64,000 nt of DNA from Geodermatophilus telluris (lineage in GTDB: Bacteria > Actinomycetota > Actinomycetes > Mycobacteriales > Geodermatophilaceae), in contig NZ_FMZF01000005.1 in NCBI RefSeq assembly GCF_900102745.1, positions 1 through 64,000 on the forward strand. Reading direction: 5' to 3'. A program made the position numbers and the translations under genes. The notes beneath the pieces were generated by a model, which made no database searches, had not been told where the DNA came from, and worked only from the letters and a program-made list of their open reading frames with translations. Shown here piece after piece: positions 15,220 to 17,541 of this stretch (position 1 is its first letter; every line of letters starts with the position of its first letter).

Positions 15220-17541
15220 GTGAGCTCCCCCGCCGAGGCACGGACGCCTCTCCCCGCCGACCCCGTGCTCGCCGACGCCGTCCGCGGCGTGCACAGCGTG
15301 TTCCAGCCGATCGTCGAGCTCGACACGGGCCGGGTGGTGGCCTACGAGGCGCTCGCCCGGGGTCCGGTGGGCCCGCTCGAGCGCCCCGACGCGCTGTTCG
15401 CCGCCGCCCGCGCCGCCGGCCGGCTGGCCGAGCTGGACGAGGCCTGCCGGGCCGCCGCCTTCCGCGGTGCCGTCGACGCCGCGCTGGTCGCCCCGCTGAC
15501 GCTGTTCGTCAACGTCGAGCCCGAGGTGCTCGACACCGCGCCGCTGGCCGACCTGCTGGCCATCGCCGAGCGCGCCCCCGGCCACCTGCGGGTGGTCATG
15601 GAGATCACCGAGCGCGCCCTGGCCGCGCGCCCGGCCGAGCTGCTGCGCACCGTGGAGCGGGTGCGCGAGCTGGGCTGGGCGATCGCCGTCGACGACGTCG
15701 GCGCGGAGTCGATGTCGCTGGCCTTCCTGCCGCTGCTGAGCCCCGACGTCGTCAAGCTCGACCTGCGCCTGGTGCAGGAGCGGCCCGGTCCCGCCGTCGC
15801 CGAGATCATGAACGCGGTCAACGCCCACGCCGAGCGCACCGGCGCCGTGGTGCTGGCCGAGGGCATCGAGCACGAGGAACACCTGCGCACCGCCCGGGGC
15901 CTGGGCGCCACCCTCGGCCAGGGCTGGCACTTCGGGCGTCCCGCGCCCGGCCCCGCCGACGGGCTGCCGGTGGGCGAGCTGGTGCTGCCCGGCGCCGGCC
16001 GGACCAGCGGCGCGCTCGGCGCGGTGTCCCCCTTCGCCTGCCTGCCCGACGACGTCCCGCTGCGGCGGGCACCCAAGGCGCTGCTCATCGAGCTGTCCAA
16101 GCAGCTGGAGCGGGAGGCCGCGCGGCTGGGCGAGACCTGCGTGGTGGCCGCGACGTTCCAGGAGGCCCGCCACTTCACCCCGTCGACCACCCGGCGCTAC
16201 CGCGACCTGGTCGAGCGGACCGGCTTCGTGTGCGCGCTCGGCGAGGACCTGCCGGTCGAGCCGCTGCCGGACCTGCGCGGCGCCGCCCTGTCGCCGGAGG
16301 ACCCGGTGCGCGGCGAGTGGGACGTCGCCGTGCTGTCCCCGCACTTCAGCGCGGCCCTGCTCGCCCGCGACCTGGGCGACGACGGTCCCGACCTGGAGCG
16401 CACCTTCGAGTACGCGCTCACCTACGAGCGCGGCACCGTGTCCCGTGCGGCGTCGTCCCTGCTGTCCCGGGTCGCGCCGCGCACCGGCCCGGCCCCCGCG
16501 ACGGCGGCCCCCGCAGGCCCTCCGCCCGCCGGGACCGCGAGCCGGCCGGCCGCCGGCCTGGCCGTGGGGACGACGAACGCCGAGGTGCTGCTGCGCCGCG
16601 CCCTGGAGGCCACGCCGAGCGGGGTGACCGTGGTGGACATGCGGCTGCCCGACCAGCCGATCGTCTACGCCAACCAGGCGTTCCGGGACCTCGCCGGGCT
16701 GCCGTCGGAGGACATCCTCGGCCGCAACTGCCGGCTGCTGCAGAGCCCGGAGACCGACCCGGCCGCCGTGGACCGCATCCGCGCCGCCGTCGCCGCCGGG
16801 CGGGCCTGCCGCGAGACGGTGCTCAACCTGCGCGGCCCCGAGCGCACGCCGTGGTGGAACGAGCTGCACCTGGCGCCGGTGCACGACGCCGACGGCACGG
16901 TCGTGCAGTACATCGGCGTGCAGGTCGACGTCACCGCGCGGGTCGAGGCCGAGCGCGCGCTCGTCCGCGAGCGCGACCGCACGTCGGCCGCGCTGGCCCG
17001 CATCCAGGAGCTGGCCTACACCGACCCGCTCACCGGCCTGCTCAACCGGCGCCGGCTGGAGGAGCAGGTGGAGGCGGCGATCTGGGAGACGCGTGCCCGC
17101 GGCGACGCGCTCGGGCTGCTGTTCGTCGACCTCGACGGGTTCAAGGCGGTCAACGACCGCCTCGGCCACGCCGCCGGCGACGAGCTGCTGCAGCAGGTGG
17201 CGCGGCGGCTGCGCGACCGGGTCCGCCGCCGCGACCTGGTGGCCCGGCTCGGCGGCGACGAGTTCCTCGTGGCGCTGCCCGACCTGGCGCCGGAGACCGC
17301 GGTCGCCGAGGCCGGCCGGGTGGCCGAGGAGCTCGCCGCCTCCCTCGGCCGGCCGGTGGCGCTGCGCGGCACCGAGGTGACCGTGGGCGCGAGCGTCGGC
17401 GTGAGCGTCTGCCCGGCCGACGGCGTGGCGTTCGCCGACCTGCTGCACGCCGCCGACCTGCGGATGTACGAGCAGAAGGCGCAGCGCCGGGCGGCGGGCC
17501 GGGAGGTGCCGGTCCCGGCGTCCCCGGTGCCGCTGGGCTGA
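15220..17541 (+). CDS. EAL-DICT-LOV-GGDEF protein, putative blue-light cyclic-di-GMP enzyme
   Basis: A 773-residue soluble protein with no membrane segment. Domain 1 is an EAL phosphodiesterase (about 20-265) with EALAR at 43, [26 protein letters not shown] and AEGIEHEE. Loop 6, normally DDFGTGYSSL, reads [10 protein letters not shown]. Domain 2 (about 282-410) is a DICT sensory domain ([26 protein letters not shown]). Domain 3 (about 455-580) is a PAS domain of LOV type with the flavin-adduct motif [13 protein letters not shown] (Cys 504) and IGVQVDVT. Domain 4 is GGDEF (678-682) with an RxxD inhibitory site just before. GTG at 15220 has GAGGA upstream. Whether EAL is active with the altered loop is uncertain. 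Confidence 0.9.

Follow-up and report, generated by a model that had tools for sequence, protein, structure and literature searches.

What does a light sensor control when it sits, beside a second sensor, between two enzymes with opposite effects on c-di-GMP? The question is raised by a gene in the window, the 64,000-nucleotide stretch of Geodermatophilus telluris DNA that we analysed, whose product had been proposed in the first-pass annotation to carry EAL, DICT, LOV and GGDEF domains in that order on one chain. The host bacteria come from dry, sunlit soil and stone. Pfam searches bear out all four assignments, since the matches to EAL, PAS_9 (the LOV domain; residues 476-573, 63.2 bits), DICT (curated cut-off 23.8 bits) and GGDEF exceed their curated cut-offs (Table 1). 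The start is supported by the matches in four of the closest relatives, which begin at query residues 1-3. A full-length AF2 model, built with 54 of 55 chosen relatives in its alignment (row L152 was left out), had a mean pLDDT of 90.3 and a pTM of 0.62.

Table 1 Features of the four-domain gene and of its surroundings, in window positions (aa, residues of the protein)
Feature	Position	Strand	Detail
16S rRNA gene	1-184	-	contig starts inside
pheS	13996..15078	-	divergent upstream neighbour, conserved locus
GAGGA	15211-15215	+	4 nt 5' of the GTG start
EAL-DICT-LOV-GGDEF protein CDS	15220..17541	+	773 aa, GTG start, TGA stop
EAL phosphodiesterase domain (putative), aa 24-241	15289..15942	+	Pfam PF00563, 131 bits; catalytic signature intact
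EAL loop 6 [10 protein letters not shown], aa 158-167	15691..15720	+	family-wide variant of DDFGTGYSSL
DICT domain as modelled, aa 262-425	16003..16494	+	AF2 pLDDT 94.4; Foldseek
DICT Pfam PF10069 match, aa 284-384	16069-16371	+	44.9 bits
DICT-LOV linker, about aa 419-452	16474..16575	+	variable and low-confidence; pLDDT <50 at 429-449
LOV (PAS_9) domain, aa 457-575	16588..16944	+	solved LOV domains among best PDB matches
Cys504 codon TGC	16729..16731	+	expected flavin-adduct cysteine
LOV-GGDEF linker, Asp570 (DVT) to Leu604 (DPLT)	16927..17031	+	35 residues; helix 572-599
GGDEF diguanylate cyclase domain (putative), aa 599-757	17014..17490	+	Pfam PF00990, 149.7 bits
RxxD inhibitory site RRRD, aa 669-672	17224..17235	+	
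Na/Ca-exchanger homologue	17649-19001	+	directly downstream
SpoU-family rRNA methylase	19602..20393	-	downstream marker of conserved locus

The order of the domains had been thought unusual, but it turned out to be a conserved family architecture. Among 124 distinct DICT sequences from Geodermatophilaceae genomes, 95 share it, which rules out a rare one-off fusion; the others are EAL-DICT-LOV (13), EAL-DICT-GGDEF (8), EAL-DICT (4), DICT-LOV-GGDEF (2) and DICT (2). Twenty-two of 26 Geodermatophilus genomes (G. telluris included) contain a match at E <= 1e-100, one of them split by a frame change, and the nearest named relative among the matches listed is Geodermatophilus tzadiensis (94% identity). 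A scan of contigs with peptide patterns derived from the query, two of them in EAL, from which the best 80 of 133 relatives were kept and which therefore favours near full-length kin, found members in Geodermatophilus, Blastococcus, Modestobacter, Klenkia, Goekera, Trujillonella, Kineococcus, Pseudokineococcus, Quadrisphaera, Motilibacter, Cellulomonas and some others. Family members also sit on contigs labelled Streptomyces sp. NP160 and Candidatus Melainabacteria (L155, L156); L155 groups with Quadrisphaera, and these labels may be wrong or contaminated.

DICT itself was matched in 88 of 112 Geodermatophilaceae genomes and in 31 of 396 in an even sample of the phylum, where 26 loci comprised one four-domain protein, nine EAL-DICT and 12 DICT alone. 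Across all loci, the 172 distinct DICT sequences, in which domains were placed with profiles built from the window protein's own family, divide into EAL-DICT-LOV-GGDEF (117), DICT alone (14), EAL-DICT (13), EAL-DICT-LOV (13), EAL-DICT-GGDEF (9), DICT-GGDEF (3), DICT-LOV-GGDEF (2) and GGDEF-EAL-DICT (1), a census tilted by the 80 loci that came from the search with the window protein. Pfam agreed with these placements for four of five proteins checked; for the fifth (L072) it found DICT and not the weak, profile-called GGDEF. The short forms are partly artefacts: split frames account for both DICT-LOV-GGDEF rows and for one of EAL-DICT, and a contig end truncates two more of the latter (L183, L211). 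Six genes (L030/L172, L208, L233, L235, L139 and L059) are split by frame changes in or beside EAL or DICT, which may be assembly errors or real. In genomes of other families EAL-DICT also occurs on its own, and the domain order fits accretion, with LOV-GGDEF added behind a pre-existing EAL-DICT.

We then read the active sites on an alignment of 100 near full-length rows, all distinct after the removal of 36 duplicates. The LOV motif GRNCRLLQ had been called near-canonical. Cys504, Asn536, Asn547 and Gln568 make up a photoactive-type residue set, but the motif departs from its usual form by a single letter, Leu506; 85 of the 100 rows have Phe at this position and 8 have Leu. The four residues are kept in 95 of 96 LOV rows, the exception being a copy from Kineococcus siccus. 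In one of the two copies of this species (L169, L126) the adduct cysteine is gone, together with further LOV residues and some of the cyclase site; the second is absent from our list of degenerate rows. The GGDEF domain was also found intact with its RxxD site, as proposed: GGDEF lies at residues 678-682, and the metal-binding Asp637, Asn645/Asp646 and DPLT are present. The cyclase site varies in the family, with 20 of the 100 rows failing the test for an intact GGDEF.

A 2022 review lists DICT among domains without a discernible physiological purpose (PMC8846402; here and below, published systems are described from excerpts of the papers cited). We modelled this domain from 70 sequences (pTM 0.89) and compared it with solved structures using Foldseek. 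The nine best matches include the TrmB sugar-binding domain, NucT, BJ-TSA-9, polyphosphate kinase and Zucchini, all of which we take to be phospholipase-D-like folds; a literature search returned nothing useful in support of classifying these nine so. Their E values range from 2e-4 to 1.1e-2, two being at or below 0.001, with TM-scores of only 0.41-0.53, identities of 6-11% and rmsd values of 5-7 A; the tenth match, of low probability, is an unrelated reductase. Against viral models nothing reached E <= 0.001; a NucT-like nuclease ranked first, a poxvirus envelope lipase second, a capsid protein third and a PLD-like protein fourth, and the fifth match was unnamed. A sequence-profile search of solved structures found no phospholipase-D-like match for DICT, and its sole match, macroH2A (E 0.079), was taken as chance. 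DICT appears to resemble phospholipase-D-like folds most, a weak but new lead rather than a finding. The excerpted text of PMC7063779, on DICT-HD-GYP of Microcystis, makes no mention of such a fold; in that protein, as here, DICT adjoins domains of c-di-GMP turnover, and the window protein differs in having DICT after EAL. The phospholipase D motif HxKxxxxD is present in none of the 172 DICT sequences, so a role in binding rather than catalysis is likely.

We compared the two joints on either side of LOV. Measured from the Asp of DVT to the Leu of DxLT, as defined in PMC10396304, the LOV-GGDEF linker is 35 residues long in 100 of the 117 four-domain proteins, 21 in 16 and 33 in one, whereas the gap between DICT and LOV ranges from 28 to 62 residues; the length-locked joint is therefore that of LOV and GGDEF. 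The 21-residue rows are 15 members of a divergent paralogous group (42-46% identity) and one protein from another family (L078). Lengths of 35 and 21 are also those of published LOV-activated diguanylate cyclases from other phyla, in which the 35-residue length makes light switching tight and long linkers bring fold changes of more than 10,000 (PMC10396304), and the conservation of linker length in LOV cyclases has already been noted in print (PMC9587094). In the AF2 model a single helix spans the LOV-GGDEF joint and confidence drops between DICT and LOV (Table 1), and a phmmer alignment of residues 455-685 with 8c05, a LOV-GGDEF protein of solved structure, has no gap in the linker. By its anatomy, then, LOV appears to be tied rigidly to GGDEF and loosely to EAL-DICT. 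Linker length and a GGDEF tree had suggested separate GGDEF origins for the 35- and 21-residue groups; an AU test does not reject one origin (p 0.61).

This half of the protein resembles LadC (MsLadC and SfLadC; PMC10396304), in which LOV is directly followed by GGDEF with the same 35-residue linker, DxLT, GGDEF and RxxD, and the 16 relatives with 21 residues have the other published length. It differs in that the window protein adds an N-terminal EAL-DICT, and some relatives keep LOV with a dead or deleted GGDEF. Three strict LadC LOV motifs, FxxxT(G/E)Y, Gx(N/D)C(R/H)(F/I)L(Q/A) and N(Y/F)xxx(G/D)xx(F/L)xN, are matched by 15, 103 and 15 of the 117 four-domain proteins, respectively, and none of them by the window protein. 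We therefore withhold the LadC label and speak of a LadC-like module; the unmatched motifs may be why such proteins would escape the published LadC filter. Among those published dark-state contacts that we mapped by hand through the 8c05 alignment, the window protein retains L129, L146, R174 and the I-site Arg but differs at D44, E77, N126, Y145 and I149 (PMC10396304).

On the basis of sequence, models and these analogies, we lean slightly towards a soluble two-module c-di-GMP enzyme, in which an EAL-DICT phosphodiesterase governed by DICT would be joined to a blue-light-activated cyclase. DICT is taken here as a non-catalytic fold that would bind and sense a ligand, and LOV-helix-GGDEF as sharing the design of light-activated diguanylate cyclases with a long linker. 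In darkness, GGDEF would be clamped on LOV, partly through its RxxD face (published work gives the I-site a part in dark inhibition; PMC12805367), and EAL-DICT would destroy c-di-GMP, giving net breakdown. In blue light, the predicted flavin of LOV would enter a photocycle and form an adduct with Cys504, the two helices would come together as a coiled coil in the register of the active state, and the cyclase would be switched on, giving net synthesis. The unmatched LadC motifs and the five differing dark-state contacts count against this reading. Light setting the direction of c-di-GMP flux, as had been suggested, is plausible. LOV and DICT need not act as one hub, because EAL-DICT is found alone elsewhere and the DICT-LOV linker is variable and modelled with low confidence. 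Synechococcus SL2 (LOV-GGDEF-EAL) likewise has LOV, GGDEF and EAL in one chain (PMC8846402); light control of c-di-GMP has been shown for proteins of its type and is putative in the window protein, which differs in its N-terminal EAL, in the added DICT and in having two sensors between EAL and GGDEF.

We followed domain losses on a tree of the EAL-DICT region, which was built by a quick method from 150 rows and has support below 80 on 50 of its 147 inner branches; the census behind it began from the DICT profile, and rows needed EAL to enter, so that L233, L235 and L079, with incomplete EAL, are outside it. Losses in the tree's main clade of 126 rows amount to one event for the EAL signature (1 of 123 scored tips; L210, which is cut, and the frameshifted L139 and L059 were set aside), four for LOV (11 of 123 tips; the cut L183 and L211 and the split L030 set aside) and nine (Fitch) to 12 (Dollo) for GGDEF (39 of 122 tips; the same three and L210 set aside), where a lost GGDEF was scored on seven positions and may take in weakly active forms such as GGDAF and AGDEF. 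Twenty-eight main-clade tips have an intact LOV with GGDEF dead or absent, and none has a live GGDEF without LOV. The latter fits LOV as a controller of the cyclase; the former argues that LOV also serves something else, and light may also reach EAL. The tally includes L203, an EAL-DICT protein that falls within the four-domain clade; the 1.6 kb that follow its EAL-DICT contain neither LOV nor GGDEF, and it is scored as a loss of both. The 14-row paralogous clade has no domain loss.

These losses count against a LOV domain directed purely at the cyclase and favour a second explanation, which we consider possible but doubtful: that light chiefly gates the phosphodiesterase, LOV acting on EAL-DICT through the dimer, with GGDEF an accessory that senses c-di-GMP for feedback through RxxD or serves as a scaffold. 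A LOV-controlled phosphodiesterase is known in SL2 (PMC8846402). Twelve EAL-DICT-LOV rows, the one named member of which is a Modestobacter, cluster together (SH-aLRT 99) within the four-domain rows, so that GGDEF was probably deleted there, and none was found elsewhere by profile within the stretches examined. All 13 EAL-DICT-LOV proteins keep the Cys-Asn-Asn-Gln set; 12 of the 13 (for example L171, L216 and L226) share a C-terminal tail with (D/E)SPG, often DSPGARRA. By plain Nei-Gojobori counting, uncorrected, pN/pS in this clade is 0.25 for EAL, 0.29 for DICT and 0.44 for LOV: LOV is constrained, but less than its neighbours, which speaks against this second explanation. In the 12-row Blastococcus saxobsidens group, the cyclase site has been lost (TRDSF or ARDSF in most copies, no D637, N645E) and the LOV residues are kept in 12 of 12 copies, with pN/pS of 0.192 for EAL, 0.166 for DICT, 0.238 for LOV and 0.547 for GGDEF. 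In the ten of these rows for which it was read, the linker is still 35 residues long although the cyclase is dead, a further point against the two-module enzyme.

Also in favour of the second explanation, RxxD was retained in all 20 dead GGDEFs of two groups, the Blastococcus group that has LOV (12) and a LOV-less group (8). Dead GGDEFs keep 14 of 38 invariant positions, and the probability that both RxxD residues are among them by chance is 0.13, so this retention is suggestive only. Moreover, counting the two groups as separate losses is unsafe; they group together (SH-aLRT 83) and share Ala653, and probably go back to one GGDEF loss. Nor does the variable, low-confidence DICT-LOV joint offer a visible rigid path to EAL. 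The GGDEF of the window protein is intact, and that of its near kin is constrained: in nine live Geodermatophilus copies every domain has a pN/pS far under 1 (0.175, 0.208, 0.225 and 0.288). The absence of a live GGDEF without LOV in the main clade likewise counts against the second explanation, as it is expected if LOV controls GGDEF. Two further observations concern Blastococcus. In L192, EAL-DICT groups with the dead-GGDEF rows yet GGDEF is live, which would make it misplaced or a recombinant gene. Four loci (L104, L106, L115 and L168) have a tandem second copy, at 8212, 8579, 7979 and 7985, respectively, 3' of the four-domain gene and on the same strand; it is EAL-DICT-GGDEF without LOV, and its GGDEF is dead.

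Both lines of evidence could be joined in one scheme, which we regard as unlikely as a whole: a single light switch would command two opposite enzymes, LOV clamping the cyclase through the helix and setting the phosphodiesterase through the dimer, with DICT as a dead phospholipase-D-like ligand reader akin to the effector domain of TrmB. The cyclase-less relatives would then be light-gated phosphodiesterases and the RxxD of dead GGDEFs a feedback sensor.

A further explanation takes EAL to be inactive through a degenerate loop 6, and EAL-DICT to be a receptor for c-di-GMP or a ligand that tunes a light-activated cyclase. Loop 6 degeneracy weakens EAL catalysis or its regulation, and the loop does depart from DDFGTGYSSL, as the first-pass annotation had noted. 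The departure is a family trait rather than a lesion peculiar to the window protein, which Val160 and Ala162, each in 99 of the 100 rows, rule out. The loop begins DDVG in 8 of 10 EAL-DICT proteins of other families (one of the ten being GGDEF-EAL-DICT), and the variant is therefore probably older than the fusion with LOV-GGDEF; other EALs read in the G. telluris genome mostly have DDFG, and one reads DDVGAGFSSL. Most catalytic positions had been claimed as kept, and the whole eight-residue signature (E43, N98, E128, D158, D159, K179, E214 and Q234; ENEDDKEQ) is in fact present. Across the 100 rows E43 is found in 98 (two gaps) and each of the other seven in 100, and all eight are kept in 144 of 153 aligned rows, the nine exceptions being six frameshifted or cut rows, two remote EAL-DICT proteins and one plain loss (L190, E214 to Ala). 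A mere receptor would be expected to lose these positions more often, and we consider this explanation improbable. That LOV is a sensor of redox or flavin status in the cell rather than of light is very improbable: a noncanonical PAS/LOV domain of RmcA has been tied to light and redox (PMC8846402), but a redox role does not need the adduct cysteine, which is retained in 131 of 132 LOV rows of a wider set.

The protein is thus a real, conserved and apparently undescribed arrangement of known parts. The first-pass annotation had allowed that the same order might already be characterised in close relatives; the order is common among them, and literature searches found no characterisation. In the openly licensed PMC literature we found no description of EAL-DICT-LOV-GGDEF, which is not proof of absence, and no paper on a LOV domain in Geodermatophilaceae. 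The order and loop 6 are more ordinary than first thought, and the two fixed linker lengths and the series of domain losses more interesting. EAL-DICT, EAL-DICT-LOV, EAL-DICT-LOV-GGDEF with live or dead cyclase and EAL-DICT-GGDEF form a natural series that bears on which enzyme the light sensor addresses; DICT gains a fold hypothesis; and if light switching is as tight as the linker suggests, these proteins would be optogenetic candidates.

The locus is fixed and has been inherited in much of the family, pheS and the SpoU methylase gene each lying beside the gene in 54 of 80 related loci. None of the six neighbours tested is a fixed operon partner: pheS is divergent, and the Na/Ca-exchanger homologue, present in 2 of 80 loci, may be a recent insertion or a variable neighbour. 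In several relatives the gene lies some 15-20 kb from the end of a contig, which would fit assemblies broken at the same rRNA operon. The G. telluris genome has 25 EAL, 32 GGDEF and one DICT match, and a survey of part of its PAS domains revealed another LOV protein, LOV-GAF-SpoIIE (L245 940-3321, + strand). One PilZ and two flagellin matches make motility a possible target of c-di-GMP in this species.
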